Both the position numbers and the translations under genes were made by a program. A DNA stretch of 64,000 nucleotides from positions 1-64,000 of the forward strand of contig JALCRM010000008.1 of NCBI GenBank assembly GCA_022652545.1, written 5' to 3'. This DNA is from Lachnospiraceae bacterium (GTDB lineage Bacteria > Bacillota > Clostridia > Lachnospirales > Lachnospiraceae). Position 1 is the stretch's first letter. Each line of letters begins with the position of its first letter. The notes below the pieces were generated by a model, which saw nothing but the letters and a program-made list of their open reading frames with translations, was not told the DNA's origin and ran no database searches. Shown here piece by piece: positions 15,784 through 63,896 of this stretch.

Positions 15784-15804
15784 TCGGAGGAGAGGAAGAA
15801 TCTG

Positions 15805-19161: not shown

Positions 19162-19316
19162 AACCGCAGAGTCAGCAACAGTATGGCGGCATTTTCAGCA
19201 GGTATCTGAAATCCCGACGATCTTCTTTATAAGCGGATCCTCAATACGCACTACAGTCCGGCAGGTAAACGATGTATATTTATCATGTATATCGGAACGC
19301 AGGAGGGCAGTTGCAT

Positions 19317-19949: not shown

Positions 19950-19978
19950 CAATATCACAGTAAGGGAATCAGACCTGA

Positions 19979-33059: not shown

Positions 33060-33086
33060 CGTAAATGACAGTTCGGAGGTTATCTG

Positions 33087-35201: not shown

Positions 35202-36463
35202 GCACTACATTTGAGCAGGTGACAGCAGGGAAAACACCGGCACAGGTCCTGGAAGCCCTGGAGGCGTCGGAGGTCCGCGAGTACGGGATATACGCAGACC
35301 GGATCGGCGGACACATCGCCAAAGCGCGGCAGCTGTGCGGGGAAGACGGTACGGAGATCAGCGGTGTTACGGCTGCTCTGAACAATGCGGACACGGACTA
35401 CGTGCAGCTTTCGCTGCTTGCGGAAGATCCGGCGAAAGTACTGCTGGGACTCAGGATCCTTGCGTTTGCGCTGGGGACTGACTGTATGACTCTTTACCTG
35501 CCGGCAGCCTTTGCACCGGCGGCCGTAACTGCACAGGCAGCCGGCACGTCACCGGCAGCCGCGGGGAAGGCGGCAGAACTGGCTTCACGGCTGCAGCCGC
35601 TTGCGGAAGAAGCCGGCGTGGCGCTGAAAACAGGCATCGTCGACATGCGTGCCGAGAGGTACGCAGTCCATATCCATATCGTAACGGCGGCGGATATTGC
35701 GGATTGTTTTGACGGAGGGATCTCCGATACGGTCCTCCTGTCCGTGAACGGGCAGGAACCGCAAAAGGTCGCGCGCAAGGCGGCGGTAGGAGAACTGGCG
35801 GACCTTGCGAAAGCGAAGGCCGTCTACATGAATTACCGTTACATGACGCCTGAAGAAGCGGCGAAGGTGACGGCAGACAGTGTCATGAACGGTCTTGTCA
35901 CGGTACTGACCGGCAGCGACTGCGTCGTCGCGGACTGCGAGAAACGGCTGCTGGCCGATCGCGCGCAGAGCTGCGGAAAGTGCGTGTTCTGCAGAGAAGG
36001 CCTGATACAGCTCGGCTACATGCAGAAGGAGATCACGCAGGGCAGAGGAAAGCCGGAGTATCTCGACCTTTCCCGCGAGATCGGCGAAGCCATGTGCGTT
36101 TCCGATCTGTGCAGCCTGGGACAGGAGACTGCGAAGAAAGCGCTGAGCGGAATGGAAACGTTCGCCGCGGAGTACGGCGAGCATATCCGGAAAAAGAACT
36201 GCCCGGCCGGAGTCTGCATGTCCAAGGAACATTACTACATCGATCCGAAGCTCTGCACAGGCTGCGGCGACTGCGAGGACGTCTGCCCCGCTGACAGCAT
36301 AGAAGGCAGGCCGCAGTACATCTACATGATCGATGATCTCGGCTGTACGCGGTGCGGCAAGTGCATCGAAGCCTGCGGAGAACAGGCGATACAGAAAACA
36401 GCCGGCAGGCTGCCCAAGCTGCCGGACCGCCTCACAAGGGTGGGCAGGTTCCACGCCCGTTGA
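35198..36463 (+). CDS. NuoF-like Fe-S protein lacking FMN/NADH motifs, with two extra [4Fe-4S] clusters
   Basis: A 421-residue protein. The middle has the NuoF cluster-N3 motif SCGKCVFCREG with a later Cys (CSLGQ), and the C-terminus a two-cluster ferredoxin domain (CTGCGDCEDVCP, CTRCGKCIEACG). The N-terminal part retains a NuoF-like stretch (DPAKVLLGLRILAFALG). I cannot find the glycine-rich NADH loop (GRGGAGFP type) or the acidic FMN segment. It may thus be a scaffold relaying electrons from the upstream NADPH oxidoreductase, to which it is translationally coupled. The run of Ala/Gly-rich sequence at 105-130 looks like a linker. Confidence 0.8.
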   Translation: MSTTFEQVTAGKTPAQVLEALEASEVREYGIYADRIGGHIAKARQLCGEDGTEISGVTAALNNADTDYVQLSLLAEDPAKVLLGLRILAFALGTDCMTLYLPAAFAPAAVTAQAAGTSPAAAGKAAELASRLQPLAEEAGVALKTGIVDMRAERYAVHIHIVTAADIADCFDGGISDTVLLSVNGQEPQKVARKAAVGELADLAKAKAVYMNYRYMTPEEAAKVTADSVMNGLVTVLTGSDCVVADCEKRLLADRAQSCGKCVFCREGLIQLGYMQKEITQGRGKPEYLDLSREIGEAMCVSDLCSLGQETAKKALSGMETFAAEYGEHIRKKNCPAGVCMSKEHYYIDPKLCTGCGDCEDVCPADSIEGRPQYIYMIDDLGCTRCGKCIEACGEQAIQKTAGRLPKLPDRLTRVGRFHAR

Positions 36464-44243: not shown

Positions 44244-46214
44244 ATGGAAGACAAGATCTGCTGTGGCATTCAAAAATATCCCCATCTGTTTGCCCCGCTG
44301 CGCATCGGCAGCGTACGTCTGAAGAACCGTATCCTGTCGGCGCCTACGAGCCCTGCCATGGTCGACACACAGGGGCATTTTACGCCCGGGATGATCGCCT
44401 ACCTCGGAGAAAAGGCGGAAGGCGGCGCTTCCGTCGTTACGTACGGCGAATCCATCGTCCATTCGGCCACGGGCAAATCGCACAATATCCAGCTGCAGCT
44501 GGATTCGGACGGTGTGAAGCAGGGGCTTGCGGAGGCGTCGCGGGCCATCCACAACGGCGGTGCGATCGCCAATATCCAGCTTTCGCACGGCGGAAAGTAC
44601 GGCGGTCTCGTCAGTGTCGCCGGGACGCGGGGCAAAGACCATCCGGCCTACGGCCCCTGCGATGAAGTGACGCCGCAGGGGATCGTCCATGCCATGCCGG
44701 TCGAAATGATCGAAGAGATCATCGCTTCCTACGGAAAGGCCGCGAAACTGGTGCAGGACTGCGGCTTTGACATGCTCGAGGTCCATGCGGCGCACGGCTG
44801 GCTGTTTTCACAGTTTCTGTCTCCCGTCATGAACCGCAGAAATGACGAATTCGGCGGAAACGCCGAAAACAGGGCCAGATTCCTGCTGCGCACGCTCGAT
44901 GAGGTCCGCAGGGCGGTCGGCCCTCGTTTTCCGATCGAGATCCGTCTTTCGGGAGACGACCTCGCGGACAACGGCATGACCATGGAACAGTGCATCGAAG
45001 TTGCACAGATGGTCGAAGACAAGGTCGACCTGATCAATGTGTCCTGCGGCAACCACGAAGATCCTGCCATGTTCTGCCGTACACACCCGTCCTCTTTTTA
45101 CCCGCACGGCGTAAACGTATATCTGGCTGCCGAAGTGAAAAAACATGTGAAGAAGCCCGTTTCCTGCGTCGGTTCGCTGAACGATCCCGCGCAGATGGAG
45201 GAGATCCTGGCTTCGGGGCAGGCGGACTGCGTGGAACTCGGGCGCGCCCTGCTGGCCGACCCGCAGCTGCCTTCCAAGACCTTTGCCGGCCGTGCGGAGG
45301 AGATCACGCCGTGCATCCGCTGCTATGAGTGTTTCGGCGAAACGATAAAGACCGAAACGATACGCTGCACGGTCAATCCTGTCATGGGACAGGAACGCGC
45401 AGCCGCAGGAGGAGTCAGGCCTGCGGCAGTCAGAAAGAAAGTGCTGGTGGCGGGCGGCGGCCCGGGCGGGATGGAAGCCGCGGTGACCGCGGCACAGAGG
45501 GGGCACGAGGTCACGATCGTCGAGAAGAGCAGCCGGCTCGGGGGCAATCTCCATCCTGCGGGAGCGGCTTACTTCAAGCAGGATATCACACAGCTGCGTG
45601 AAGTGATGGAAGAGAGAGTGCGGAAGGCCGGCGTGAAGGTGGTCACGGATACGGAAGTGACGCCGGAATTTGTAAAGGCTGCGGATGCGGATGTGCTGAT
45701 CGTGGCGATCGGTTCACACGAACTGAAGCCGCCCATCAAGGGCATCGATCTGCCGAACGTCGTCATGGCCGTGGATGCGGAGCTGCATCCGGAAAAACTC
45801 GGACACAGGGTGGCCATTATGGGCGGCGGCCTGGTCGGCAGCGAAGCGGCGGTCTCTTTCTGTCACGAGGGACATGAAGTGACGGTGATCGAAATGAAGC
45901 CGGAAGCCGCTGCGGAGGTCAACCCCTTCTATCGCGGCGGCCTGCTTGCCGAACTGGACAGATCCGCACAGGTACTGGTCAGCACGAAGGTGCTGGAGAT
46001 CGTGCCGGAGGGCGTGCGAGTGGAAGCGGACGGAAAGGAAAGCCTTGTCAGTGCGGACATGGTCGTCTGCGCGCTGGGATTCCGCGCGCCGTATGCCGAG
46101 GTGGACGCGCTCTGCGCGGAAGCCGGGGAATCGGTGATCATCGGAGACTGCAAAAACGTGGGACAGATAGGCGGGGCCATCAGCGACGGCTATTATGCGG
46201 CGCTCCGGATCTGA
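44244..46214 (+). CDS. Old Yellow Enzyme-family NADH:flavin oxidoreductase (2,4-dienoyl-CoA reductase type)
   Basis: A 656-residue Fe-S flavoenzyme. An N-terminal FMN TIM barrel (FAPLRIGSVRLKNRI, VHAAHGWLFSQFLSP, NRRNDEFGG) is followed by a [4Fe-4S] motif near residue 356 (CIRCYECF...CTVNP) and a C-terminal FAD/NADH-binding half (VAGGGPGGMEAAVTA and MGGGLVGSEAAVSF). The family reduces activated C=C bonds; FadH, bile-acid and daidzein reductases are examples of the same architecture. ATG 44244 is two bases after the previous stop. With the flavoproteins nearby it supports a polyphenol- or enoate-reducing role (inference). Confidence 0.9.
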   Translation: MEDKICCGIQKYPHLFAPLRIGSVRLKNRILSAPTSPAMVDTQGHFTPGMIAYLGEKAEGGASVVTYGESIVHSATGKSHNIQLQLDSDGVKQGLAEASRAIHNGGAIANIQLSHGGKYGGLVSVAGTRGKDHPAYGPCDEVTPQGIVHAMPVEMIEEIIASYGKAAKLVQDCGFDMLEVHAAHGWLFSQFLSPVMNRRNDEFGGNAENRARFLLRTLDEVRRAVGPRFPIEIRLSGDDLADNGMTMEQCIEVAQMVEDKVDLINVSCGNHEDPAMFCRTHPSSFYPHGVNVYLAAEVKKHVKKPVSCVGSLNDPAQMEEILASGQADCVELGRALLADPQLPSKTFAGRAEEITPCIRCYECFGETIKTETIRCTVNPVMGQERAAAGGVRPAAVRKKVLVAGGGPGGMEAAVTAAQRGHEVTIVEKSSRLGGNLHPAGAAYFKQDITQLREVMEERVRKAGVKVVTDTEVTPEFVKAADADVLIVAIGSHELKPPIKGIDLPNVVMAVDAELHPEKLGHRVAIMGGGLVGSEAAVSFCHEGHEVTVIEMKPEAAAEVNPFYRGGLLAELDRSAQVLVSTKVLEIVPEGVRVEADGKESLVSADMVVCALGFRAPYAEVDALCAEAGESVIIGDCKNVGQIGGAISDGYYAALRI

Positions 46215-49960: not shown

Positions 49961-49968
49961 CACAACCT

Positions 49969-50060
49969 CAGCATCGGTGCTGACGCACCGGCTGCAACAG
50001 CGGCACGAAGTGTTGCCGATGTTCATTTCGGAGAACCTGAAGGTTCTCCTCATGGAGGAA
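49969..50060 (+). repeat. SD-proximal double-hairpin leader element, copy 1
   Basis: CGGTGC-TGAC-GCACCG (49975-49990) followed by an extra imperfect hairpin and then GGAGAACC/GGTTCTCC (50030-50048), ending CTCATGGAGG immediately before ATG 50064. The same two-hairpin plus ribosome-site layout recurs at 51130, 52337 and twice at 59219-59433. Confidence 0.65.
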
Positions 50061-50063
50061 AGA

Positions 50064-51125
50064 ATGAACGAATTTATTGCGCAGATGACGGAAAAGGCCA
50101 AAAGGGATCCGAAGCGCGTGGCCTTCCCCGAAAGTGACAATGTGAATGTACTGAAGACCGCCGAACAGGTAGCGGCGCAGAAGATCGGCTATCCCATGCT
50201 GATCGGCAGCAGGCCGCAGATCGAGGCGCTGGCAGCGGAAAACGGGATAAGCTGCGAAGGCTTTTCCTGGTTCGACAACACGGACGAACAGGCCCTGCAG
50301 GGACTTGCCGAAAAGGTAGAGGCCGTACAGAAGGCGGAAGAGGAAAAGGCTGCGGCCGAAGGTAGGCTCGAAGAATACAGCGCTACGCACGTTCCCTTTT
50401 CAGCGAAGGCAGTTGTCCGCAAATCCAAAGACGCGATACGCTGCGCCATGTTTTTACTGAAGGCGCATGAAACAGACTGTGTGGCGGCGGGCAAGGACCA
50501 TTCGACGGGCGATGTCGTGCACGAAGCCGGCAGTATCGTCGGCATGCAGGAAGGGGTGGAATCTCCTTCCAGCATCGGGATCGCGGATGTGCCGGGTTTT
50601 GCCTACGGCGAGAAGGGCATGTTCGGCATCGCGGACTGCGCGATCACGGCACAGCCGGATGCAAAGGATCTGGCGGGCATTGCCATCGCTTCCGCAGATA
50701 CGGTGACGCGCCTCCTCGGCTGGACGCCGCGCGTGGCCATGCTCGCTTTTTCCACCGACGGCAGCGCCGAGCATGAGAGCATCGACGTCATCCGGGAAGG
50801 CATAAGGCTGGTGCATGAGCGCCGCCCCGACATTCTCTGTGACGGGGAATTCCAGCTGGATGCAGCGCTGCTGCCGGAAGTGGCCGCGCACAAGGTCCAC
50901 AGGGACAGTCCTGTGGCTGGCAAGGCCAACATCCTGATCTTCCCCAACCTGCATGCCGGCAACATCGGTGTGAAGCTGATCCAGATCTTCGGCCATGCGA
51001 ATGCATACGGCCCGGTGCTGCAGGGCTTTGCGCAGCCGGTCTGCGATTTTTCCCGCTCCGCGCCGGTCGACGAGATGCTCGGAAACGTAGCAATGCTGAT
51101 CATCCGTGCAGGGGATGCGGAGTGA
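50064..51125 (+). CDS. Phosphate acyltransferase (phosphotransacetylase/phosphotransbutyrylase family)
   Basis: A 353-residue PTA/PTB-family enzyme converting acyl-CoA plus phosphate to acyl phosphate. Landmarks are RVAFPESDN at the start, GKDHSTGDVVHEAGSIVG, the mid LAFSTDGSAEHES and closing GFAQPVCDFSRSAPVDEMLGNVAML. A charged Ala/Glu-rich insertion (about residues 90-110) is unusual. ATG 50064 follows GGAGGAA by six bases; an upstream in-frame extension runs through the leader element and is rejected. Paired with the kinase encoded next, it would yield ATP from an acyl thioester. Confidence 0.88.
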   Translation: MNEFIAQMTEKAKRDPKRVAFPESDNVNVLKTAEQVAAQKIGYPMLIGSRPQIEALAAENGISCEGFSWFDNTDEQALQGLAEKVEAVQKAEEEKAAAEGRLEEYSATHVPFSAKAVVRKSKDAIRCAMFLLKAHETDCVAAGKDHSTGDVVHEAGSIVGMQEGVESPSSIGIADVPGFAYGEKGMFGIADCAITAQPDAKDLAGIAIASADTVTRLLGWTPRVAMLAFSTDGSAEHESIDVIREGIRLVHERRPDILCDGEFQLDAALLPEVAAHKVHRDSPVAGKANILIFPNLHAGNIGVKLIQIFGHANAYGPVLQGFAQPVCDFSRSAPVDEMLGNVAMLIIRAGDAE

Positions 51126-51129
51126 TCAA

Positions 51130-51183
51130 AAAGCCGCAGCATCGGTGTCGGAGCACGGCGCCGGCTGTCCAACGGAGGTAAAA
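51130..51183 (+). repeat. Leader element, copy 2 (short form)
   Basis: GCAGCATCGGTGTCGGAGCA and GGCGCCGGCTGTCC form an imperfect first hairpin, but the second hairpin of the other copies is missing. The copy ends ACGGAGGTAAAA directly at ATG 51184. Confidence 0.5.
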
Positions 51184-52287: not shown

Positions 52288-52304
52288 TCAAAACAGGAGG
52301 TAAG

Positions 52305-52407
52305 TTTGAAAGTGCCGCTGATGCAGCACTTTCAAACCGCAGCATCGGTGCTGACGCACCGGCTGCCCACTTCGGAGGATCTGAAGATCCTCCTCATGGA
52401 GGTAAAG
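52305..52407 (+). repeat. Leader element, copy 3, preceded by an extra hairpin and SD
   Basis: First comes TTTGAAAGTGC (52305-52315) paired with GCACTTTCAAA (52326-52336). Then the standard hairpins follow: CGGTGC-TGAC-GCACCG (about 52345-52360), then GGAGGATC/GATCCTCC, ending CTCATGGAGG five bases before ATG 52408. A second SD-plus-TTGAAAGT (52296-52313) precedes the element and resembles the GGAGG plus ATGAAAGT at its end, as if the element had been inserted with duplication of the start region. Confidence 0.6.
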
Positions 52408-53406
52408 ATGAAAGTACTCGGTATTTCTTTCGGAAGAGTGAACCAGCGCAGCGACATCATGGTCAAGGAAGCGCTGTTTGCGGCAAAGCGCGCAGGCGCC
52501 GATGTGGAATTCTACAACGCCGTGCGTATGAATATCACGCACTGCCACGCCTGCGATTACTGCAGCCGCTGCAGGGACAAAGGCGATGTCGAAATCGGCT
52601 GTGCGTTCAAGGACGATTACCAGACGCTTGAGGAAGCTTATTACAACTGCGATGCGATCGTCATCGGCGCACCGGTCTACGCTGTCGGCATCGTCGGACA
52701 GTTCAAGAATTTCCTGGACCGCATCTGCCCGTCCCACGACCGCGCAGCCCTTCTTGAGGAGAACAAGAAGAGGGCGGCGGAAGGGAAACCGCTGCTGGAT
52801 GAGCGCTATTTCAAGGACCGCTACAGCGCCTATATTTCCGTGGGCGGGGCGCAGACGCACAACTGGGTGGCGTTCGGCCTGCCGATGCTGCATCTGTTTG
52901 ACTTTTCTTTTGCCATGAAATGCGTAGGGCACGTGGATGCGTATGACCAGGGGCGCACAGGCAGTCCGCTGCTGGATGACGCGCTGATGAAGAAGTGCGC
53001 CGACCTCGGCACGGCGCTTGCGCAGGCGGTAGGGAAGCCTTACGATGAAGTGACGACCTGGGCGGGCGATGACAACGGTGTATGCCCGGTGTGCCACAAT
53101 CCGCTGCTTTCCTTCAACGGCACCACGGATGTGGAGTGCCCGGTCTGCGGGATCCACGGAAAGCTCAGCGTTGACGGCGAAAAGGCCATGGTCACCTGGC
53201 CGGACAGCGAGATCGCAAGAGCCCGCAATACGATCCCCGGACTGTACGAACACTGCAACGAGATCCATAACATGATCGTGGTGTGTGTGCCGAAGCTCGT
53301 AGCCAATAAGGAACTGATACAGGAGAAGATGAAGAAATACACGAATTTCGACGAAACAATCAGGCAGATCGCGGCGGAAACAGCCGCACAGAACAAGGAG
53401 GCGTGA
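52408..53406 (+). CDS. Flavodoxin-like NADPH:FMN reductase with C-terminal zinc ribbon (paralogue 2)
   Basis: A 332-residue paralogue of the protein at 36529, with the same order of parts: VLGISFGRVNQRSD phosphate loop, CHACDYCSRCRDKGD cysteines (one more Cys than paralogue 1), VIGAPVYAVGIVGQFKNFLDR, and a zinc ribbon CPVCHNPLL...ECPVCGIHGKL near the C-terminus. ATG 52408 has GGAGG five bases upstream. It lies between the acyl kinase and ACP genes, so it may reduce an acyl or ring intermediate of that pathway. Nothing in the sequence fixes the substrate. Confidence 0.85.
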   Translation: MKVLGISFGRVNQRSDIMVKEALFAAKRAGADVEFYNAVRMNITHCHACDYCSRCRDKGDVEIGCAFKDDYQTLEEAYYNCDAIVIGAPVYAVGIVGQFKNFLDRICPSHDRAALLEENKKRAAEGKPLLDERYFKDRYSAYISVGGAQTHNWVAFGLPMLHLFDFSFAMKCVGHVDAYDQGRTGSPLLDDALMKKCADLGTALAQAVGKPYDEVTTWAGDDNGVCPVCHNPLLSFNGTTDVECPVCGIHGKLSVDGEKAMVTWPDSEIARARNTIPGLYEHCNEIHNMIVVCVPKLVANKELIQEKMKKYTNFDETIRQIAAETAAQNKEA

Positions 53407-54689: not shown

Positions 54690-55991
54690 ATGTATCGTTA
54701 TGCCATGGAAAAGCTTTATCAATGGAAAAAGAGCAGTCGCCGCAAGCCGCTGATCATCGAAGGCGCCCGCCAGGTCGGAAAGACCTGGATCATGAAGAAA
54801 TTCGGCAGCGAAGCATACGCAGATACCGTATACATCAATTTTGATGCAAATTCCAGGATGGCGGAACTGTTTGCGGCAGACCTGAACACAGACCGTCTCA
54901 TTATGGGGATCGAACTTTATGCCGGGCACAAGATCGATCCGGACAATACACTGCTTATTTTTGATGAAGTGCAGGAAGTACCGAAAGCGCTTTCATCCCT
55001 CAAATATTTCTATGAAAACGCGCCGCAATACCATATCATCTGCGCCGGCTCTCTCCTCGGCATTGCCCTGCACGGCGGCACCTCTTTCCCTGTCGGCAAA
55101 GTTGACTTTCTCAAACTCGGCCCTCTGTCTTACAGGGAATTCCTGATGGCGACCGGAAACGGGCGTTTTGCGGAGCTGCTGGATAAACAGGATTATGAGA
55201 TGATCGCACCTTTCAGGCAGACATATATTGATCAGCTAAAGTACTACTATTTTGTCGGCGGTATGCCGGAGGCGGTACAGAGCTTTGCGGAAAATAAAGA
55301 TTTTGATGAAGTGCGTGACATACAGAAACGTATTCTCTCCGCTTACGAACAGGATTTTTCCAAGCATGCTCCTTATGAGACGTTGCCGAAGATCCGCATG
55401 ATCTGGAACAGCATTCCCCCCCAGTTGGCCAAGGAAAACAAGAAGTTCATCTACGGACTGGTCCGTGAAGGGGGAAGAGCGAAGGAATATGAAACCGCCA
55501 TTATGTGGCTTACCGACTGTGGCCTTGTACATAAGATCAGCCGGATAAATACGGCGGGTATACCGCTGAAGGCCTATGAGGATCTGCGGACCTTCAAACT
55601 GTTTATCCTGGATGTCGGGCTGCTTGGCTGCATGACAGGGCTGCGTCAGGACACGCTGCTGGACGGCAACGACCTGTTTACCGAGTTCAAAGGGGCACTC
55701 ACTGAGCAGTATGTCTGTCAGCAGCTTGAGACCATTGAAGACCTGGGCATTTACTATTACACAAATGAACGAGGCTCCTGCGAGGTAGACTTTGTCCTTG
55801 ACGCAGGCAGCAGGATCATCCCGCTGGAAGCCAAGGCTGAGACAAATCTCAAAGCCAAGAGTCTTCGGATGTTCAAAGAAAGGTTTGCACCGGAAATTTC
55901 AGTCCGTACTTCCATGGCGGCTTACAAAAGGGAAGACTGGCTCATTAATCTTCCGCTGTATGCGGTGGAGGAGATCCAATGGAAAAAGTGA
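54690..55991 (+). CDS. AAA ATPase with DUF4143 domain
   Basis: A 433-residue protein with Walker A IIEGARQVGKTWIM, Walker B LLIFDEVQE, sensor ICAGSLLG, and a C-terminal DUF4143 domain with a PD-(D/E)XK-like stretch (CEVDFVLDAGSRIIPLEAKAE). These ATPases are common in gut bacteria, often scattered and laterally moved, with unknown function. ATG 54690 has GGAGG seven bases upstream; the ATG six bases earlier abuts the site. Its 3' end overlaps the next gene by 13 bases in another frame. Confidence 0.9.
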   Translation: MYRYAMEKLYQWKKSSRRKPLIIEGARQVGKTWIMKKFGSEAYADTVYINFDANSRMAELFAADLNTDRLIMGIELYAGHKIDPDNTLLIFDEVQEVPKALSSLKYFYENAPQYHIICAGSLLGIALHGGTSFPVGKVDFLKLGPLSYREFLMATGNGRFAELLDKQDYEMIAPFRQTYIDQLKYYYFVGGMPEAVQSFAENKDFDEVRDIQKRILSAYEQDFSKHAPYETLPKIRMIWNSIPPQLAKENKKFIYGLVREGGRAKEYETAIMWLTDCGLVHKISRINTAGIPLKAYEDLRTFKLFILDVGLLGCMTGLRQDTLLDGNDLFTEFKGALTEQYVCQQLETIEDLGIYYYTNERGSCEVDFVLDAGSRIIPLEAKAETNLKAKSLRMFKERFAPEISVRTSMAAYKREDWLINLPLYAVEEIQWKK

Positions 55992-57079
55992 AGGTCGGCA
56001 TCATAGGCTGCGGAGCGATCAGTGACGTATACATGACGAATATCACACGGCACTGCGGCAATCTCGAACTTGCGGCGGTAGCCAACCGCAGTGCGGACAA
56101 AGCAAAGGCCGCCGCTGAAAAATTCCATATTCCGGTCGCCTGCAGCACAGAGGAACTGCTGGGAATGGAAGAGATCCGCATTGTGCTGGACCTGACAGTA
56201 CCGGCTGCACATTACGGCGTGAACAGGCAGATCCTGGAGGCAGGGAAGAATCTCTACAGTGAAAAGCCGTTTGCCATCAGGACAGAGGAAGCAAATGAAC
56301 TGATCGGACTGGCTGCAGCGAAGGGACTGATGGCTGCCGGCGCACCGGATACGTTTTTAGGCGCCGGTGCACAGACGGCACGCGCACTGCTGGATGCAGG
56401 CAGGATCGGGAAGCCTTTCGGATTTACAGCGAACATGACCTGTCCGGGACATGAACTGTGGCACCCGAATCCCGGTTTCTATTATCAGAAAGGCGGCGGC
56501 CCGATGTTTGACATGGGGCCCTACTATATGACAACCCTTGTCTGCCTTCTCGGACCGGTGAAGAGGATCTCCGCTTTCCTGACATCCGGCTGGCCGGTAC
56601 GGAACATCCTCGGAAAGATGACGGAGACTGAAGTGCCCACGCATTATACGGGTACAATGGAATTTGCAAACGGTGCGGTCGGCACGGTGACCATGAGTTT
56701 TGACACCTGGTACTCATCTCTCCCGCGGCTGGAGATCTATGGGACGGAAGGTACACTGGTCCTGCCGGATCCGAACTGTTTCGGCGGACAGGTGCGGCTG
56801 TTCGACGGAAAGCAGAACCGTATGCAGGAGGTTGCACCGCTGTTCCCCCAGGCCCCGGATCCTTCCTGTAACATGCGGGGACTGGGCGTCAGCGATATGG
56901 CATGTGCGCTGACGGATGGCCGTGGCAGCAGGCTCCGCTCCGATGTTTTGCTCCATGTGGTGGAGATCCTGAATGCGTTTGAGATCTCTGCGCGGGAGAA
57001 CAGGCCCTGCGAACTGCAGACGACCTGCGACAGGCCGGAACCGATGGACAGCGACTGGGCGCTTTGGGAAGTAATGTAA
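55979..57079 (+). CDS. Gfo/Idh/MocA-family oxidoreductase (candidate C-glycoside 3-oxidase/dehydrogenase)
   Basis: A 366-residue NAD(P)-dependent dehydrogenase: nucleotide loop GIIGCGAISDVYM at the N-terminus, the active-site lysine in YSEKPFAI near residue 97, and the substrate region GGGPMFDMGPYYM. In C-glycoside pathways a protein of this family oxidises the sugar C3 before carbon-carbon cleavage (DgpA in the puerarin system). The deglycosylase-like pair at 59436-60871 lies 2.4 kb downstream, which makes this role plausible but not certain. GGAGG precedes the ATG within the ATPase gene. Confidence 0.85.
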   Translation: MEKVKVGIIGCGAISDVYMTNITRHCGNLELAAVANRSADKAKAAAEKFHIPVACSTEELLGMEEIRIVLDLTVPAAHYGVNRQILEAGKNLYSEKPFAIRTEEANELIGLAAAKGLMAAGAPDTFLGAGAQTARALLDAGRIGKPFGFTANMTCPGHELWHPNPGFYYQKGGGPMFDMGPYYMTTLVCLLGPVKRISAFLTSGWPVRNILGKMTETEVPTHYTGTMEFANGAVGTVTMSFDTWYSSLPRLEIYGTEGTLVLPDPNCFGGQVRLFDGKQNRMQEVAPLFPQAPDPSCNMRGLGVSDMACALTDGRGSRLRSDVLLHVVEILNAFEISARENRPCELQTTCDRPEPMDSDWALWEVM

Positions 57080-57650
57080 AACATCCGCCTGTGAAACATG
57101 GCGGATGCGAAGCTGCTTGCGCAGCTTCAGTGTGACAGTATTGGCTTGACCAAGGTAGAGCACCCGCCTGTGGGATAGGGCTAATTTACCGGAGGAGCAT
57201 GTCTGATTCACTTGAGGAACATGGCTTTATCTGCATTGGTAAATTGTGAAGATCCATCAGTATCCGCCGGATATTTCTCCTGCGATACAGTGTTTTCAAG
57301 ACGTGGTTTGTTCGCGGCGAAAGCATCTGGCTTTTGGATGGTCAAGGCCGCGCCTCGACAGGTGTTTTAAGGCATAGCTTGTTCGCGGCGAAAGCTTTTG
57401 GGGTCATGAATGACCGGTGCCGCGCCTCGATATGTTCTTCGGAAGCATTTTTGATCGTTTAGGGGCAATTTTGGGGTTCAAACGATCAAAATCGCCCCCG
57501 GCAGGCACACTTCACACCTCGGAAGCTTTTTTGATCGTACCGAAGGGCTGGAGGATGTAAAAGCCGGACGGACAAAGGACGGTAAAACGGCAATAGATAA
57601 TATAAGAGGCAGGATCTGCTGAATCGCGGAAATAAAAATGTTTTTCGGTC
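57080..57650. other. Long structured intergenic region
   Basis: Most of the 736-base gap between the oxidoreductase and esterase genes. It holds, in order, two adjacent perfect hairpins (CATCCGCC/GGCGGATG at 57082-57107 and GAAGCTGC/GCAGCTTC at 57109-57128), two copies of the hairpin repeat (57292-57430), and two direct copies of TCGGAAGC(A/T)TTTTTGATCGT (about 57429-57459 and 57520-57539), of which the first can also pair with AAACGATCAAAA near 57480. No credible protein frame is present. Its content looks RNA-structural. Confidence 0.5.
57292..57430. repeat. Hairpin repeat family, copies B and C in tandem
   Basis: Copies at 57292-57359 and 57364-57430, 72 bases apart. Each begins GTTTT(C/A)AAG, passes TTGTTCGCGGCGAAAGC and ends GCCGCGCCTCGA. 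CGCGGC pairs with GCCGCG. The centres differ but each can form its own stem (AAAGC/GCTTT in B, GGTCAT/ATGACC in C). Copy A lies at 30423-30489. Confidence 0.65.
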
Positions 57651-57691
57651 GGAGGTCAAAAACGTATCCATTCTTTTTGACCTCCTTTTTT
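57651..57691 (+). terminator. Rho-independent terminator
   Basis: GGAGGTCAAAAA (57651-57662) pairs perfectly with TTTTTGACCTCC (57674-57685) and is followed by six T residues. It lies upstream of the esterase gene with no clear open frame before it, so it may end a non-coding transcript from the repeat region or act as a leader terminator. Confidence 0.8.
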
Positions 57692-57769
57692 GTGCACTGA
57701 AAAAAGGAGAGCGGACGCGGTGCAACATAGACATTTCCCTGATAGAGCGGCAGCTCTGCGGATGCTACT

Positions 57770-57788
57770 ATTTCCCTATAAGGGAAAT
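57770..57788. promoter_or_regulatory. ATTTCCC-N5-GGGAAAT operator-like palindrome
   Basis: A perfect 7+7 inverted repeat around TATAA, 28 bases before the esterase start. A matching half-site, ATTTCCCT, lies at 57732-57739. The position suits a repressor site controlling the esterase-deglycosylase-importer genes. Confidence 0.5.
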
Positions 57789-57815
57789 TTTGATCTTTAT
57801 TCGGGAGGCGACAAA

Positions 57816-59216
57816 ATGAGCAGACAGGTAAAGACAGAAGGCGGGATCGTGGAAGGTGTTTCCGGCAGCGGCTGTACGGTATTCATGGGGATTCCCTATG
57901 CGGCTCCGCCGACAGGCGAACTGCGCTGGAAGGCACCGCAGCCGGCGGCAGCATGGCAGGGAGTGTTCAAGGCAGACAGGTTTGCGGCTATCTGTCCGCA
58001 GCGTATGCCGGAACCGGGCGACTCTTTCATGGGCAGGTACCATAAAGAGTTTTATAACGATCCGGAATTTCTGCGGGAGATGAGCGAAGACTGTCTGTAC
58101 CTCAATATCTGGGTGCCGGAGCGCGACGGCGCAGCGGCCGAAACAGACAGTGCGGCAGCAACAGACGGCGCAGCGGCAGAAAACCCGGCAGCGGGAAAAC
58201 TGCCGGTGGCCTTTTACATTCACGGCGGCGGTTTCAGCGGCGGGTACAGTTCCGAGACGGAATTCGGCGGCGAGGCGTTCTGCCGCAAAGGTGTCATCCT
58301 GGTGACGATCGCTTACCGTCTCGGTATCTTCGGCTTTCTCGCACATCCCTGGCTGGATGCGGAGAATGAGAGGGCCATTTCCGGCAATTACGGGATTCTG
58401 GATCAGATAGCGGCGCTGTGCTGGGTGAGCCGTAATATTGCAGCCTTCGGAGGAGATCCGGAGAATATCACTGTTTTCGGACAGTCGGCAGGTTCCATGA
58501 GCACGCAGGTGCTGGTCTCCAGCCCGCTGACCGGTTCGATGCCGGCAAAGGCGATCCTGCAGAGCGGACTTAGCTGCGAGGAAAATATTCTCGCAACGCC
58601 GACGCTTGCGGAAGAAGAGGAATTCGGGAAAAAATATGTCGCATACACGAAAGCGGCGACACTCCCGGACCTCAGGAAGATGACGGCGGATGAACTCCTT
58701 GGGGCCAAGGATCTTTTCGATGCGGAAATGTGGAAAAGCGGTGCAGGCCTGGTCATGGTGCCGAATGTGGACGGCTATGTCCTGCCGGCATCGGTGAAAG
58801 AAGTCTATAGGGGCGGCACGATGAAAAAGATCCCGTACATGGCAGGCTGCGTGGACAGCGATATAGGGACCGTACCCGAAGACCTCAAGGCGGACCGCCC
58901 GGGCATCATTCTGGATGAATGCCTGCGCTGGAGCAGACGCGTTGAAGAAGTGACGGGAAAGCCCGCGTACGTTTATGAATTCAAAAGGAAACTGCCGGGC
59001 GATGACTGGGGGGCTTTCCATTCCTCGGAACTCTGGTACATGTTCGGCACACTGGGCCGCTGCTGGAGACCCATGACGGAAGCGGACAGAAAACTCAGCG
59101 AAGACATGGTGACATACTGGACTGACTTCATGAAGACGGGTTCTCCGGATCCGGAACAGAACAACTGGAAGCCCTGCGGTGCAGAGGAACAGTACGTGCA
59201 GAAATTCGATGTCTAA
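57816..59216 (+). CDS. Type-B carboxylesterase
   Basis: A 466-residue paralogue of the esterase at 17134: FMGIPYAAPPTGELRWK, SEDCLYLNIWVPE, oxyanion loop GGGFSGGY and nucleophile motif FGQSAGS. Late HSSELWYMFG supplies the probable catalytic histidine. An Ala/Asp/Glu-rich low-complexity stretch (about residues 107-127) interrupts the region before the oxyanion loop and is absent from the paralogue. No signal peptide. ATG 57816 has GGGAGG eight bases upstream. It probably removes ester substituents from the glycosides processed by the downstream genes. Confidence 0.9.
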   Translation: MSRQVKTEGGIVEGVSGSGCTVFMGIPYAAPPTGELRWKAPQPAAAWQGVFKADRFAAICPQRMPEPGDSFMGRYHKEFYNDPEFLREMSEDCLYLNIWVPERDGAAAETDSAAATDGAAAENPAAGKLPVAFYIHGGGFSGGYSSETEFGGEAFCRKGVILVTIAYRLGIFGFLAHPWLDAENERAISGNYGILDQIAALCWVSRNIAAFGGDPENITVFGQSAGSMSTQVLVSSPLTGSMPAKAILQSGLSCEENILATPTLAEEEEFGKKYVAYTKAATLPDLRKMTADELLGAKDLFDAEMWKSGAGLVMVPNVDGYVLPASVKEVYRGGTMKKIPYMAGCVDSDIGTVPEDLKADRPGIILDECLRWSRRVEEVTGKPAYVYEFKRKLPGDDWGAFHSSELWYMFGTLGRCWRPMTEADRKLSEDMVTYWTDFMKTGSPDPEQNNWKPCGAEEQYVQKFDV

Positions 59217-59218
59217 AA

Positions 59219-59433
59219 CATGACGCTGAGCGCCGATGCGCCCATCGTCATGTGGCAGCAACGGTGCCGAAAGCGGCACCGGCTGCCCGATTCGGAGAAT
59301 CTGGCGATTCTCCTCACGGAGGTAAAAACATGACGCTGAGCGCCGATGCGCCCATCGTCATGTGGCAGCAACGGTGCCGAAAGCGGCACCGGCTGCCCGA
59401 TTCGGAGAATCTGACGATTCTCCTCAGGAGGTA
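59219..59433 (+). repeat. Leader element, copies 4 and 5 in 110-bp tandem
   Basis: Two nearly identical copies (59219-59328 and 59329-59433). Each contains CATGACG/CGTCATG enclosing GCGC/GCGC, then CGGTGCCG-AAAG-CGGCACCG flanked by GGCAGC/GCTGCC, then GGAGAATC/GATTCTCC and a GGAGGT ribosome site. Copy 4 ends in SD plus ATG, so a 36-codon leader frame (starting 59220) and another (starting 59330) can be read, the second overlapping the start of the DUF6379 gene. Confidence 0.75.
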
Positions 59434-59435
59434 TT

Positions 59436-59882
59436 ATGCCTACACAATATATGAAACTCGGATTTGAAGAAAGAGTGCTGCGGCCGGACGGCTTTTATCA
59501 TCTGCTGCTGAACGGGAAAAAGGTGGGGTTCAACCTTGACCTCAGGATCAACTATTATCGCGGCATGCAGCTTTCCACCGTGGAGACGCTGAAGGTGACG
59601 GTGGACGGGATGGAGATCCCTTCCGGACTGATGATGGCGCAGCTGAACGGAAAGTGTTTCGGCACGGATGAGCTGAAGCAGATGTACCAGGAGTACTGGG
59701 GGATCAAGGATCCCATGCATCTGCGGATATTCAACGGCGGACTGCCGGACGGGGAGCATGAGGTGTCCGTAAAACTGATCTTCAAGTCTCCGTATATGAA
59801 GTTTACCGAGGGCGTGTACGGCCTGGTCGACGGGTCCTGTTCAAAGCGGCTGACGATAGCCGAAGGGAGGGAGTTCGCATGA
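59436..59882 (+). CDS. C-deglycosylation enzyme beta-subunit-like protein (DUF6379 type)
   Basis: A 148-residue beta-rich protein: residues GFEERVLRPDGFYHLLLNGK at the start, then GFNLDLRINYYRGMQLSTVE, a central WGIKDPMHLRIFNGGLPDGEHEV and closing MKFTEGVYG. Size, order and wording match, as I recall them, the small subunit of bacterial C-glycoside deglycosidases (DgpC, DfgB, CarC types). That subunit pairs with a TIM-barrel subunit to cleave the C-C bond of 3-oxo-C-glycosides. The TIM-barrel gene overlaps its stop by four bases (ATGA), the arrangement expected for the heteromer. AGGAGG precedes the ATG. Confidence 0.8.
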   Translation: MPTQYMKLGFEERVLRPDGFYHLLLNGKKVGFNLDLRINYYRGMQLSTVETLKVTVDGMEIPSGLMMAQLNGKCFGTDELKQMYQEYWGIKDPMHLRIFNGGLPDGEHEVSVKLIFKSPYMKFTEGVYGLVDGSCSKRLTIAEGREFA

Positions 59883-60871
59883 AAGCAGATCTTGACCTGG
59901 GCGTATCGCTGTACGGCTTTACACAGCGTTTCGTGGAACGTGACGACTACGGATTTGAAGAAATGTTTCGCGGGCTGAATGCTCTCGGTATCCGCAAATT
60001 CGAACTGGTCGGTGCGCAGATGTTCCGCAGCTATCCGATCCCTTCCGACGAGGAAATAGCAGAGGTACTGGAACTGGCGGCAAAATATAACGTCGAACCT
60101 TTCAGCTACGGCGGCTATATCGATTTTGCCAAGCGTACGGACAGGGATCTTACGGACGAGGAAATGCTGCGCGAGATCACATACGATCTGATGACGGCTC
60201 ACAGGTTGGGCTGCAGGTATCTGCGCGAACCTGTGCCGGCAAGGCTGATGCCTGCCGCAGCGGCGATGGCGGAAAGGTATCAGGTCGCGATCGGCTATGA
60301 GATCCATGCGCCGCAGCGTCCGAGCGACCCGGATGTACAGGAACTGCTGCATGTTTTCGAAAAACTGGACAGCCCCTGGGTGGGCTTCGTGCCGGACTTC
60401 GGCTGCTATATCGAACGTCCGAACAAGCTGTCGGTCGACCGCTTTCTCGGCCTCGGCGCAAAGCCGGAAAACCTGCAGTACATCATCGACCACAGGTGGG
60501 ACGGCAGCACCGAAGCGGAGATGACCGCAAAGATGGCGGAAATGGGCGGCGGCGAAGCGGAGAAGATGGCGGTCAGCGAATGGTTCGGCTATCTTTCCTT
60601 TGCGCCGGCGGACCTCGACGGGTTTCGCACGGTCCTGCCCTTTGCCAGATATTTTCACGGAAAGTTCTACCATATCGGCGAGGACTGCGTCGAAACGACG
60701 ATCCCCTATGAAAAACTGATCCGTATGGCGGTGGAATCCGGTTTTGACGGCACGCTCATGATCGAATACGAGGGGCATACCTTCTATCTGGATGACGCGG
60801 AAGAACAGATCGCACGCCACATCAGGATGGAGAAGAGGATCCTCGCGGATCTGCAGGCAGAAAACCTATAA
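59879..60871 (+). CDS. C-deglycosylation enzyme alpha-subunit-like protein (xylose-isomerase-like TIM barrel)
   Basis: A 330-residue sugar-phosphate isomerase/epimerase-type TIM barrel. Metal-ligand candidates on successive strands are Glu141 (AIGYEIHAP), Asp173 (GFVPDFGCY), His265 (FYHIGED) and Glu296 (LMIEYEGH), matching the Glu-Asp-His-Glu set of the fold. Family knowledge: DgpB/DfgA-type subunits of this size bind a divalent metal and, with the DUF6379 partner, deglycosylate 3-oxo-C-glucosides by beta-elimination. The paired gene order strongly supports this function; other isomerase roles cannot be excluded by sequence alone. Confidence 0.8.
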   Translation: MKADLDLGVSLYGFTQRFVERDDYGFEEMFRGLNALGIRKFELVGAQMFRSYPIPSDEEIAEVLELAAKYNVEPFSYGGYIDFAKRTDRDLTDEEMLREITYDLMTAHRLGCRYLREPVPARLMPAAAAMAERYQVAIGYEIHAPQRPSDPDVQELLHVFEKLDSPWVGFVPDFGCYIERPNKLSVDRFLGLGAKPENLQYIIDHRWDGSTEAEMTAKMAEMGGGEAEKMAVSEWFGYLSFAPADLDGFRTVLPFARYFHGKFYHIGEDCVETTIPYEKLIRMAVESGFDGTLMIEYEGHTFYLDDAEEQIARHIRMEKRILADLQAENL

Positions 60872-60921
60872 GGTCAAAATTCGACAATCAAAAATGACTT
60901 CCTTTTGAACGCCGGCAAAAA

Positions 60922-61084
60922 AGCAGTCAGAAAAGCGGACTGCTGAGTGCAGGCGGAGGCGGAGTAGTGAAACGCGTATTTTGCTAAACTTGGTTTCGGT
61001 CAGGGGGACAGGGCACAACAGCGAAGGCGCCCTGCCTGGAATGAACGGTCCGCAGAGGACCGGAACCATGCAGCTTACAGCTGC
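60922..61084 (+). promoter_or_regulatory. Leader hairpins before the binding-protein gene
   Basis: AGCAGTC/GACTGCT (60922-60944), CGGTCC/GGACCG (61046-61062) and GCAGC-TTACA-GCTGC (61070-61084) precede the ribosome site AAGGAGG of the binding-protein gene. The last two mimic the hairpin-hairpin-SD order of the leader elements, though the sequence is different. Confidence 0.4.
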
Positions 61085-61107
61085 GGAAAGCAAAAAGGAG
61101 GAAGATC

Positions 61108-62790
61108 ATGAATCTGAAGAAGGTGACAGCACTGGCACTTGTCGGTGCAATGGCGCTTTCCCTTGCGGCATGCGGGAGCACAGGCACAACGGCTTCCACG
61201 GCAGCGACGGGAGCAGGTGCATCCGGATCGGCAGCCAGCGCGGCTGCGGCTGCGACGAGCTCCGATACGACGGGGACTGTCAGCGGCGCGAAAGGTGCAA
61301 ACCAGGATGCGGCCAATACGACGGCCACAGACGAAACACTTACCATCGGGCTGGCTTCCGAGCCGTCGGCGCTCTGGGGAGCTCCGGTCGGCAAGACTGA
61401 GAACGAGGCACAGATCATTTTCAGCGCACTGACGGACAGACTCGTCAAGGTCGACCATACCACCGGGGAAGTCAAACCGGATCTGGCTACTTCCTGGGAA
61501 TGGGTAGACAGCAAACACTGCAAATTCAATCTCCGCACGGATGTCACGATGACGGACGGCACGCCCCTTACGGCGGATGATGTCGTGTATTCGGTGAGCG
61601 TCTGGACCGGCGCTTCCGCAAATACCGACACCGGACGTTTCATCGATGCCGCGACGACCAAGGCAGACGACGACCACACCGTGACGATCGGTTTCAATAC
61701 CCCGGCACCGGACCTGCTTTCCATGCTGGACTGGAGCAATTTCGGCATCGTCAGTGAGGACGAGGTCAATGCGGCTGGCGGCGCGGAAGCCGCGGCCAAC
61801 AACCCGGTCCTGGGCTCCGGCAAGTACAAGTTCAAGGAATGGAAGCGCGGCCAGTCCATCACCCTGGAAAGAAACGATAACTACTGGGACAAGGACTGGA
61901 AGGGCTATTACAAGACGATCGTATTCACCTTCACCAGTGACGCAGCGGCACGTGCAATGGCGGTACAGTCCGGTGACAGCCAGGTGGCCTACGACATGCC
62001 GGTCAGCCAGGCTTCCACATATCTTGCAAGTACTGATGTCCAGACCGTCATGTACACATTCGGACAGGTGGGACACCTCTGGTACAACATGTCCGACGGA
62101 CACGACGCGACCCAGAACCAGAAGGTCCGCGAAGCCATCGACAAGGCGCTGGACTACGATGCGATCGCGCAGGTAGGTACCGCAGGGACAGGCAAGGCAG
62201 CGCTCGGTTATTTTGACACCGACAGCAAGTACTACAACCAGACATACACCGAGGACGAGAGAAAGGTGGACGTCGAGGGTGCCAAGGCACTTCTGAAGGA
62301 AGCAGGCTATGAAAGCGGCCTTGAACTTACCGCGATCGGCCTTCAGGATGTCGTTCCGGTCTACACGGTCATGCAGGAGAACCTGCGTGCGGTAGGCATC
62401 ACGCTCAATATCAAGACAACAGATACAGCGCAGTTCGTACAGGATGCTTTCGGCGGCAACTATGACATCATCGACGTAGGTGAACTTACGGATGCCAGAT
62501 ATCCTACCCTGCTTCCGTTCCTGAGAAGCGCCAACATCGCTTCCGGCTATGTCATCGGCGGTCCCAAGGCCACGACGGACGCTATCGATTCCGCCATCGA
62601 GACAGCCATTGAAGAGACCGATGAAGCAAAGGCCAAGGAAGAACTCGGCGCGATCGAGCAGACGATGAAGGAACAGACCATCGTGTCCAACCTTTATCCT
62701 GAAATGCACGCTTCGGTCATTGCCAAGGATCTGAAGGGCTACACCACGATCGAAAGAGGTTTCATGGATCCCACGAATTTCTATAAATAA
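61108..62790 (+). CDS. ABC transporter substrate-binding lipoprotein (family 5)
   Basis: A 560-residue paralogue of the protein at 9002. The signal peptide ends in the lipobox LSLAAC with Cys22 lipid-modified, followed by a long Ala/Ser/Thr/Gly-rich linker to about residue 75. The mature domain contains ETLTIGLASEPSALWG, DLATSWEWVDSKHC and the late EQTMKEQTIVSNLYPEMH. It delivers ligand to the permeases that follow, presumably the glycoside handled by the deglycosylase genes just upstream. AAGGAGG precedes the ATG. Confidence 0.9.
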   Translation: MNLKKVTALALVGAMALSLAACGSTGTTASTAATGAGASGSAASAAAAATSSDTTGTVSGAKGANQDAANTTATDETLTIGLASEPSALWGAPVGKTENEAQIIFSALTDRLVKVDHTTGEVKPDLATSWEWVDSKHCKFNLRTDVTMTDGTPLTADDVVYSVSVWTGASANTDTGRFIDAATTKADDDHTVTIGFNTPAPDLLSMLDWSNFGIVSEDEVNAAGGAEAAANNPVLGSGKYKFKEWKRGQSITLERNDNYWDKDWKGYYKTIVFTFTSDAAARAMAVQSGDSQVAYDMPVSQASTYLASTDVQTVMYTFGQVGHLWYNMSDGHDATQNQKVREAIDKALDYDAIAQVGTAGTGKAALGYFDTDSKYYNQTYTEDERKVDVEGAKALLKEAGYESGLELTAIGLQDVVPVYTVMQENLRAVGITLNIKTTDTAQFVQDAFGGNYDIIDVGELTDARYPTLLPFLRSANIASGYVIGGPKATTDAIDSAIETAIEETDEAKAKEELGAIEQTMKEQTIVSNLYPEMHASVIAKDLKGYTTIERGFMDPTNFYK

Positions 62791-62822
62791 AGCACAGTAA
62801 AGAGCGGATTTAAGGCAGCGGG

Positions 62823-62852
62823 GGCGCCATGGAGAGTATTCTTCATGGCGCC
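62823..62852 (+). promoter_or_regulatory. Stem-loop between binding-protein and permease genes
   Basis: GGCGCCATG (62823-62831) pairs perfectly with CATGGCGCC (62844-62852), with no T-run. It stands 33 bases after the binding-protein stop, the same place as the hairpin at 10698-10733 in the first importer operon. Confidence 0.65.
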
Positions 62853-62921
62853 ACGCCGCAAACAGGCACAACAGAGACAGAAGACACAGCAGGAAACAGG
62901 CAGCAAGACAGGAGATACCCC

Positions 62922-63896
62922 ATGGCAAAATACGTAATAAAGCGATTGCTTCTCCTTATTCCCATTCTGCTCGGCGTTTCGGCAATCATCTTTGTGCTGA
63001 AGACGCTGACGCCCGGTGACCCGGCACGGCAGATCCTCGGCAACGACGCGACGGAAGAGCAGATCTCAGCAAAACGCGAGGAACTGGGACTCAATGACCC
63101 GGTCATCGTCCAGTACGTCCGTTACGTAGGAAACATCGTGACGAGAGGCGATTTCGGAACGTCCTACCGGACGAATGAGCCTGTCCTCAGCGAGATCATA
63201 CCGAGACTGTGGACCAGCGCCAAGATCACTCTGGGTGCGGTGGCCATAGGAGCTATTCTGGGTATACTCCTCGGCATTCTTTCCGCCCTGCGCAAATATA
63301 CCTGGGTCGACTCCCTGGTGCTCGTTATTTCGATGTTTTTCCAGTCCGTCCCGGAATTTGTCGTCGGCCTCGTGCTGATCACCGTCTTTGCGGTCAAGCT
63401 CCACATTCTGCCGGCGGCAGGCATAGACACGCCGCTCGGCTATATCATGCCCATGCTCTGCATAGGGCTCTCCTCGGTCGCGAGCTATACGCGTATCACC
63501 CGATCCTCCATGCTGGAGGTGCTGAGTGAGGACTATATCCGCACGGCGAGGGCGAAGGGACAGACGGAAAAAAATATCACCTACCACCACGCACTGCGGA
63601 ACGCGATGATCCCGGTCGCGCAGAGCATCGGTACCAGCCTCGGCAACTCGATCGGCGGCGGCATGGTTCTCGAGACCGTGTTCAGTGTACCCGGCGTCGG
63701 CAAGTACATCGTGGATTCCATCAACCAGCGCAACTATCCGTCGGTACTCGGCGGTGCCCTGGTCATCGCGATCGTACTGACTGTCATCAATCTCCTTGTC
63801 GATCTGAGCTTTATCCTGATCGACCCGAGACTCAAGTCCACGATCATCTCCGGCGGTGCTTCAAAGCCGAAGAAGGCCAAAGTGGCGGAAGCATAG
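62922..63896 (+). CDS. ABC transporter permease, DppB/OppB type
   Basis: A 324-residue permease: MAKYVIKRLLLLIP start, TPGDPARQILG after the first helix, six predicted helices, and the EAA-loop region YIRTARAKGQTEKNITYHH. ATG 62922 has AGGAGA about seven bases upstream. The frame open upstream to 62829 runs through the stem-loop and is not used. It belongs to the second importer with the binding protein at 61108. Confidence 0.92.
   Translation: MAKYVIKRLLLLIPILLGVSAIIFVLKTLTPGDPARQILGNDATEEQISAKREELGLNDPVIVQYVRYVGNIVTRGDFGTSYRTNEPVLSEIIPRLWTSAKITLGAVAIGAILGILLGILSALRKYTWVDSLVLVISMFFQSVPEFVVGLVLITVFAVKLHILPAAGIDTPLGYIMPMLCIGLSSVASYTRITRSSMLEVLSEDYIRTARAKGQTEKNITYHHALRNAMIPVAQSIGTSLGNSIGGGMVLETVFSVPGVGKYIVDSINQRNYPSVLGGALVIAIVLTVINLLVDLSFILIDPRLKSTIISGGASKPKKAKVAEA

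Follow-up and report, generated by a model that had tools for sequence, protein, structure and literature searches.

The window analysed here is a stretch of 64,000 nucleotides, bases 1-64000 of contig C8 (126,806 bases) in the assembly of a Lachnospiraceae bacterium (2.67 Mb, 27 contigs, 81% complete). Towards its end lie, all on one strand, genes for a Gfo/Idh/MocA oxidoreductase (55979), a type-B carboxylesterase, a small protein (59436), a TIM barrel (59879) and an ATP-binding cassette (ABC) importer; the features are listed in Table 1, and positions above 64000 lie on C8 past the window. A sequence-only reading had taken 55979-60871 as a candidate locus for C-glycoside deglycosylation. 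We find the open reading frames of the oxidoreductase, the small protein and the TIM barrel where it had put them, and the four-base overlap of the latter two is ATGA, with the start codon of the second gene lying on the stop codon of the first. These two genes match the beta and alpha subunits of the C-glycoside deglycosidases (CGD), and the pair is the first of eight within 47 kb (C8:59436-106424), most of which lies past the window. The limits proposed for the locus therefore cut a larger unit.

The beta subunit matches the Pfam family PF19906 (CGDB, C-glycoside deglycosidase beta subunit) with 102.5 bits, the cut-off being 27.6, and its best match in the PDB is DgpB (E 2.6e-27). The best PDB match of the alpha subunit is 9m3a_A (E 5.9e-65), and DgpC matches it with E 5.2e-54; at E<=0.01 it matches eight distinct PDB sequences, every one of them either a CGD alpha or a fused CGD. 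At E<=0.001, neither subunit matches an NCBIfam family. The comparison thus places the best solved matches of both genes within the CGDs, and the earlier identification of the pair holds. The protein labelled "DUF6379" carries the name CGDB in Pfam.

Next, we looked at the active site. The active-site residues of AgCGD2 (E147, H149, D179, H269, K271, E305 and E307; PMC8563793) correspond to E141, H143, D173, H263, K265, E299 and E301 of DgpC and to E141, H143, D173, H260, K262, E296 and E298 of the window alpha. By alignment, E141, D173, H260, K262 and E296 are its metal residues, H143 and E298 its catalytic ones. The metal site is therefore intact, but the proposed set Glu141/Asp173/His265/Glu296 named the wrong histidine: the site residue is His260, and His265 is another histidine. 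None of the 62 alpha rows lacks any of the seven residues, and all 61 beta rows have Tyr39 of the beta subunit (Tyr41 in the window). The rows are our nine own pairs, those of two congeners (G017 and G038), the named loci discussed below, and PDB fragments, which account for 2 of the alpha and 3 of the beta rows. Partial sequences (2 alphas, 1 beta) had been removed before counting. In PuCGE, the Y39F exchange abolishes C-glycoside cleavage (a loss of about 12,000-fold) at a cost of 2.4-fold for an O-glycoside (PMC10628242), and the conservation of this tyrosine supports a predicted competence for C-cleavage.

In a tree of 62 alpha rows, for which the bootstrap had not fully settled, the window alpha groups with Anaerobium acetethylicum, a Eubacteriaceae metagenome-assembled genome (MAG; 70% identity) and two Clostridiales MAGs. 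Since a Bacillus, a Bacteroidota (Paraflavisolibacter) and a Bifidobacteriaceae MAG are further members, the clade crosses phyla; the clade loci were retrieved with the window sequence itself as query, which favours their presence in it. It is placed beside the DgpC/9m3a clade (support 93/73, unstarred). Several of its members are natural single beta-alpha chains, found in L016 (Anaerobium), L018 (two, Bifidobacteriaceae MAG) and L020 (LaPlata MAG). The CGDs of G017 include fusions of both orders, alpha-beta and beta-alpha, and in 30 of 30 loci of G017 and G038 an alpha adjoins or is fused to a beta. In the Bacillus locus (L017), a DgpA (620 bits to DgpA1) immediately precedes the genes for the related beta and alpha. 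The Anaerobium run (L016) starts with a DgpA (526 bits), followed by a beta, an alpha similar to that of our sixth pair (p6), the fused relative of the window pair, a beta, and an alpha similar to p8. This company of DgpA is the strongest evidence that CGDs of the window type work in the opening of C-glycosides. For the fused Anaerobium relative, we compared an AlphaFold2 model with solved structures by Foldseek. The best matches were CGD alphas, the first four of which reached a TM-score by target of 0.90-0.92; CGD betas were matched separately (chains of 7bvr and 9m3a, 0.79-0.83), so that the model confirms, as a prediction, that both domain folds match CGD chains.

Compared with PuCGD, the DgpB-DgpC of strain PUE (7bvr, 7exz), the window pair has the same two-subunit form, all active-site residues, and a lid-length insert between the metal Asp and His of 87 against 90 residues. 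It differs in sequence (30% identity for alpha, 38% for beta), in having no dgpA beside it, and in its separate clade, which has no solved member among the tree rows. In W974-1 DgpB2/C2 (9m3a) we find the best PDB match of the window alpha, which nevertheless falls outside the 9m3a clade; the alpha of the island pair 77194/77714 is 62% identical to 9m3a. To P581a DgpB1/C1 (9m3b) the window beta is 27% identical, whereas the betas of the pair 83587/84623 and of a pair on contig C1 reach 56%. The fused CGD of Microbacterium testaceum (8qrz, 8un2) is a single beta plus alpha chain like the relatives in L016, L018 and L020; the window pair is made of two genes and is distant in sequence (64.5 bits). 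From these alignments and the tree, we judge the pair to be a sound new CGD, in a clade that appears to have no solved member.

A search of the own genome with PF19906 found nine betas, each with an adjoining alpha. Eight of them lie in C8:59463-105269 and one on contig C1 (rough post hoc binomial 3e-11). For example, 14 kb downstream of the window pair there is a run of a DgpA-like gene (74971), a TIM barrel (76272) that matches 8tcd, a 3-keto-beta-glucopyranoside-1,2-lyase (E 1.7e-16), a DgpB-like gene (77194), a DgpC-like one (77714; 464 bits to 9m3a, 380 to DgpC) and then a MATE exporter. Besides the glycosidase-family genes of Table 1, the island holds a GH35/DUF5597-type protein and two ABC importers, one of the SBP_bac_5 type (61108-66783) and one of the DUF3502 type. 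Homologs of the GH43 protein (47-55%) lie within about 9 kb of CGDs in the Bacillus locus, in a Clostridiales MAG (L021) and in G017. It is no more than a fair inference that outer pentoses or esters are removed before the C-C bond is cleaved. Past the last pair, an 888-residue protein (C8:108892-111558; L012:16892-19555) has only a sub-threshold match to a GH2-type sugar-binding domain near its C-terminus (24.1 bits, cut-off 27); possibly it is an undescribed glycosidase of the island.

The nine alphas of the genome are 22-50% identical to one another, the eight of the island 24-37%. Tandem duplication was rejected as an explanation for the island: in the tree, the nine alphas call for nine independent placements (bootstrap range 9-9), and even of the closest two, p4 and p9 (50%), p9 is joined by a Bacillus sequence before p4. 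The nearest outside rows are 45-70% identical and are eight different sequences for the eight island alphas, among 53 outside rows from three sources, which are not a full survey. The island brings together CGD lineages of separate descent. In composition it is host-like (tetranucleotide distance 0.081-0.100 for C8:24-120 kb, against 0.067-0.107 for 21 stretches of the own genome), so that by composition it is not a very recent arrival. A recent plasmid transfer found no support: all 22 PLSDB records were below 60% identity, and the 15 listed ones at 28-31%.

How unusual is this number of CGDs? Including the own genome each time, PF19906 was found in 7 of 62 genomes of the genus (33 genes in G017, 9 in our genome, then 5, 2, 2, 1 and 1), in 26 of 299 genomes of the family (25 over the cut-off; the highest counts were 14, 9 for our genome, 8 and 6) and in 4 of 398 genomes of a phylum sample (the others with 2, 1 and 1). 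Eight named carriers have 2-14 genes each, but these were picked for having a relative of the window pair. The congener G017 has 2.6 Mb in 14 contigs and is 96% complete; since its 34 alphas are at most 78% identical to the nearest paralog, the count of 33 is not due to duplicated assembly. The largest published count that we found is that of Catenibacillus decagia (PMC11170127), another member of the Lachnospiraceae that carries multiple CGD sets and DgpA genes. Its 6.6 Mb hold six dgpBC clusters together with 11 homologs of DgpA; our genome has nine pairs in 2.67 Mb, eight of which fall within 47 kb, and G017 reaches 33 PF19906 genes in 2.6 Mb. In the open-licence literature that we searched by titles and starts of abstracts, neither an eight-pair CGD array nor a genome with tens of CGDs is described. 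The enzyme kind is known and its density unusual; what stands out are the eight pairs of the island and the 33 copies in the congener.

We then asked which gene supplies the oxidase. The sequence-only reading had assigned the oxidation step to 55979. The family is correct, but the role is not borne out: the best solved match of this gene is 3evn (80.5 bits), and DgpA reaches 52 bits. Moreover, its membership of the CGD unit is doubtful, as it shares 13 bases with the ATPase gene before it and is separated from the esterase by 736 bases. There are six PF01408 genes in the genome, four of them in C8:55988-99628 (rough post hoc binomial 2e-6). The gene at C8:99266 has the P581a DgpA2-isoorientin complex as its best solved match (465 bits, E 1e-138), and C8:74971 has DgpA (7xr9, 110 bits, over residues 1-282 of 421 only). 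The oxidase most likely comes from one of these two island genes, DgpA2-like or DgpA-like and both outside the window, rather than from 55979. C8:70976 matches other members best (4iq0).

For the esterase, the assignment to type B was correct (PF00135), but the gene finder puts its start at 57816 and not at 57690. The family-5 importer is there as proposed, with an SBP_bac_5 protein, two permeases and two ATPases, and reaches 66783. On the other hand, the route of import, de-esterification, oxidation and C-C cleavage in one island is supported only in its CGD part. In six named loci of 11-21 kb with related CGDs (L016, L017, L018, L019, L021 and L022; the gene calls of L022 were poor, and a better reading gave the same result), neither the esterases nor the SBP_bac_5 protein were ever the best match of a gene (blastp, E<=1e-10), and the esterase-importer-CGD arrangement was not seen; a joint route of these genes therefore rests on proximity. 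The cluster of strain PUE with dgpABC includes transporters (PMC8398226), so an importer near dgpABC is not new.

Taken together, we consider it very probable that 59436 and 59879 encode a heteromeric, metal-dependent CGD that works with an island-borne C3-oxidase in the use of varied plant glycosides. The family, the intact residues, the pairing, the fusions and the nearby DgpA in relatives are observed; complex formation and catalysis we infer from characterised homologs (C2 deprotonation and beta-elimination: PMC8563793, PMC10628242). A separate C3-oxidase would make the 3-oxo sugar, from which the alpha metal together with His143 would take the C2 proton; the bond to the aglycone would then break by beta-elimination and yield a 3-oxo-glycal. 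Tyr41 of the beta subunit may position the aglycone in a way that allows even a C-C bond to be broken. Most likely, the island serves varied plant glycosides, C-glycosides among them, in this Lachnospiraceae bacterium, and each CGD would cover a different aglycone or linkage.

The alternative to be taken most seriously, though we think it unlikely, is that the pair is mainly a beta-eliminase of 3-oxo O-glycosides in vivo, with C-glycosides as minor or absent substrates. PuCGE acts on 3-keto glucosides of both the O- and the C-type, and the authors of that study propose that it may be a generalist (PMC10628242); the lyase-like 76272 in the island fits such a chemistry as well. Yet Tyr41, which matters for C- and hardly for O-cleavage, is kept, and relatives of the window pair occur together with true DgpA. 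We give clearly less credit to a single dedicated pathway made of the importer at 61108 and beyond, the esterase 57816, the oxidase 55979 and the CGD. The adjacency on one strand and the generic family fits speak for it, as do a weak relative of 55979 (32%) in G017 (L075), whose end lies about 3.5 kb ahead of a CGD pair, and a leader element of our genome, described below, found in front of the CGD pair and again in front of the second esterase (66906); but 55979 is not DgpA-like, the six named loci lack best matches to esterases and SBP_bac_5, and 26 CGD stretches of G017 hold one esterase homolog.

Two further explanations have very little in their favour. An assembly or binning artefact behind the dense island would be conceivable in an 81% complete genome of 27 contigs, the more so as C8:1-20 kb is compositionally foreign (46.4% GC), and is very improbable, because C8:24-120 kb falls within the tetranucleotide range of the genome, the divergence of the eight alphas is not that of duplicated sequence, and clusters are seen elsewhere (e.g. 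six PF19906 genes within 34 kb in the genome G364). That the pair is a generic sugar isomerase or epimerase with an unrelated small neighbour is hardly credible, if anything still less so: AP_endonuc_2 is indeed a broad family, but the solved matches of the alpha are exclusively CGDs, an alpha stands beside or is fused to a beta in each of the 30 G017 and G038 loci, with fusions in both orders, and the CGD active site of the window alpha is complete.

Several observations weigh against our preferred interpretation, a C-glycoside-cleaving pair within a versatile island. Identity to the closest solved relatives is low (alpha 37% to 9m3a, beta 38% to DgpB), and Tyr39, being invariant in every row, cannot separate C- from O-specialists. 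The model of the fused relative, made from five sequences, is of moderate quality (predicted local distance difference test 75.9, predicted TM-score 0.65), and its chain as a whole fails to superpose on the fused M. testaceum CGD (8un2/8qrz; root-mean-square deviation 19.6 A over 509-511 columns), so that the model does not confirm how alpha and beta are placed relative to each other. When we compared the context of CGDs in G017, only the substrate-binding proteins of the DUF3502 type were enriched (13 v 0, p 0.006, uncorrected). The Gfo genes (5 of 15 within 7 kb; 5 v 0, p 0.055) and the GH39-AraC proteins (5 v 0) were not significant, and the only apiosidase-family gene of G017 sits on a contig without a PF19906 gene. 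MATE exporters seemed to recur near CGDs but were rejected as evidence, as their excess in G017 was not significant (10 v 1, p 0.09) and they are common, with 35, 69 and 39 domain matches in our genome (G000), G017 and G038.

CGDs help to decide whether the aglycone is released from C-glycosides such as puerarin, orientin or mangiferin, and few have been assayed. Eight pairs with intact sites and alpha identities of 24-37%, together with the 33-copy relative, make a panel for asking how the pocket between alpha and beta chooses between C6 and C8, between O- and C-linkage, and among aglycones. As a tentative idea, for which we would give somewhat less than even chances, the lineage may use oxidation and elimination generally, with a few shared C3-oxidases feeding a bank of CGDs of separate descent and with pentose- and ester-removing enzymes in front. 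If this were true, the 33-copy congener would be specialised, drawing most of its living from glycosides that are opened not by hydrolysis but by 3-oxo beta-elimination. The ecological question raised is which diet keeps 33 such genes in a genome of 2.6 Mb.

Table 1. Features of the window and of the adjoining island on contig C8 (positions above 64000 lie beyond the window).
Feature	Position	Strand	Remarks
Gfo/Idh/MocA oxidoreductase	55979..57079	+	366 residues; not DgpA-like by best match; unit membership doubtful
Type-B carboxylesterase	57816..59216	+	PF00135; no obvious signal peptide (by eye); putative role in the route
Two tandem leader-element copies	59213..59434	+	99% identical over 102 nucleotides; end is the Shine-Dalgarno sequence of the beta gene
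CGD beta subunit, DgpB/DfgB/CarC type	59436..59882	+	148 residues; PF19906; Tyr41 = PuCGD Tyr39
CGD alpha subunit, DgpC/DfgA/CarB type	59879..60871	+	330 residues; AP_endonuc_2 TIM barrel
SBP_bac_5 protein, oligopeptide-type ABC importer	61108..62790	+	LAAC lipobox (by eye)
OppB-type permease	62922..63896	+	
OppC-type permease and two ATPases of the SBP_bac_5 importer	63913-66783		beyond the window
Leader copies in the window	49965-50058, 51113-51176 (weak), 52298-52402, 59213-59323, 59319-59434
Leader copy before the second esterase	66793-66902
Type-B esterases of the island	57816 and 66906		two
PF13204 apiosidase-family protein	86533
GH43 protein	87971
AraC-GH39 proteins	80961, 89644, 92255, 106464		four

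Two copies of a 102-nucleotide unit take up the gap between the esterase and the beta gene. They belong to a dispersed leader element of about 110 nucleotides with three hairpins, whose end is a Shine-Dalgarno sequence and which stands directly before start codons. We found 54 matches in the own genome with blastn, and 67 distinct copies with nhmmer in the sequence of it that was searched, six of which lie mostly inside a called gene. Of 63 copies with an intact 3' end, 49 have within 16 nucleotides a start codon that opens at least 80 codons; the others run into a further unit, 4 as scored by script and 10 as judged by eye. The same start-codon test succeeded at 16% of 4000 random places and after 376 of 1418 occurrences of any GGAGG, element copies included.

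The z-scores of the two tandem window copies are -8.0 and -6.8. In an alignment of 30 copies, 98.3% of the cells pair, and 16 of 34 pairs change on both sides. This covariation is strong: such both-side changes fill 102 cells, against 31.4 for shuffled alignments, none of which reached this value in 500 trials, and 1-6 for slid controls. Further pair types show no excess (24 v 24.7). As the structure was derived from that alignment, whose copies are related to one another, the controls should not be read as probabilities. A short helix joins CCN to the first bases of the ribosome-binding site; at N, the pair is A-U in 24 copies, G-C in 3, U-A in 2 and another in 1. Relatives with the same plan occur in the congeners G006, G027 and G059, where seven of nine loci read into an open frame within 16 nucleotides of the match, its start position being unsettled, and the other two end too soon; the sequence searched of G017 and G038 gave no match.

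Rfam has no family for the leader at its gathering score in L010-L013, nor at E<=1 in L124-L131, and it is not described in the open-licence literature searched by titles and starts of abstracts. It is possibly an undescribed RNA or mobile-leader family, and its origin may also lie at the level of DNA, in mobile palindromes. In L124-L131, Rfam gave only T-box-like and HgcC-like matches, at places other than the leader; one, similar to a T-box leader (L129:837-1050, 37.1 bits, gathering score 93), lies just upstream of a leader array on contig C2. Since the copy at 52298-52402 ends in a Shine-Dalgarno sequence, the open reading frame of a flavin mononucleotide reductase (52306-53406) most likely starts at 52408.

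Flavoenzymes are present in the window as had been claimed (44244, 31599, 33087 and 35198), with a putative role in polyphenol reduction. The one at 44244 resembles BaiCD (442 bits, below the model cut-off of 825). Together, 31599-36463 and 44244-46214 form a reductive module near the CGD island, with an FAD_binding_2 protein, an iron-sulphur/pyridine-nucleotide oxidoreductase, a NuoF-like iron-sulphur protein and the BaiCD-like flavoenzyme of the old yellow enzyme type. A scan of 55500-63000 gave 3 promoter sites, where 3.7 are expected, and 10 terminators, where 6.9 are expected (standard deviation 2.8). Bases 1-20000 of the window have a GC content of 46.4% and a tetranucleotide distance of 0.160, outside the range of the 21 own-genome stretches (0.067-0.107); this part is either a foreign island or a chimeric end of the contig. 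Within it, the genes from 9002 to 18609 look, from the start of their translations and their order only, like an oligopeptide-type importer and an esterase.

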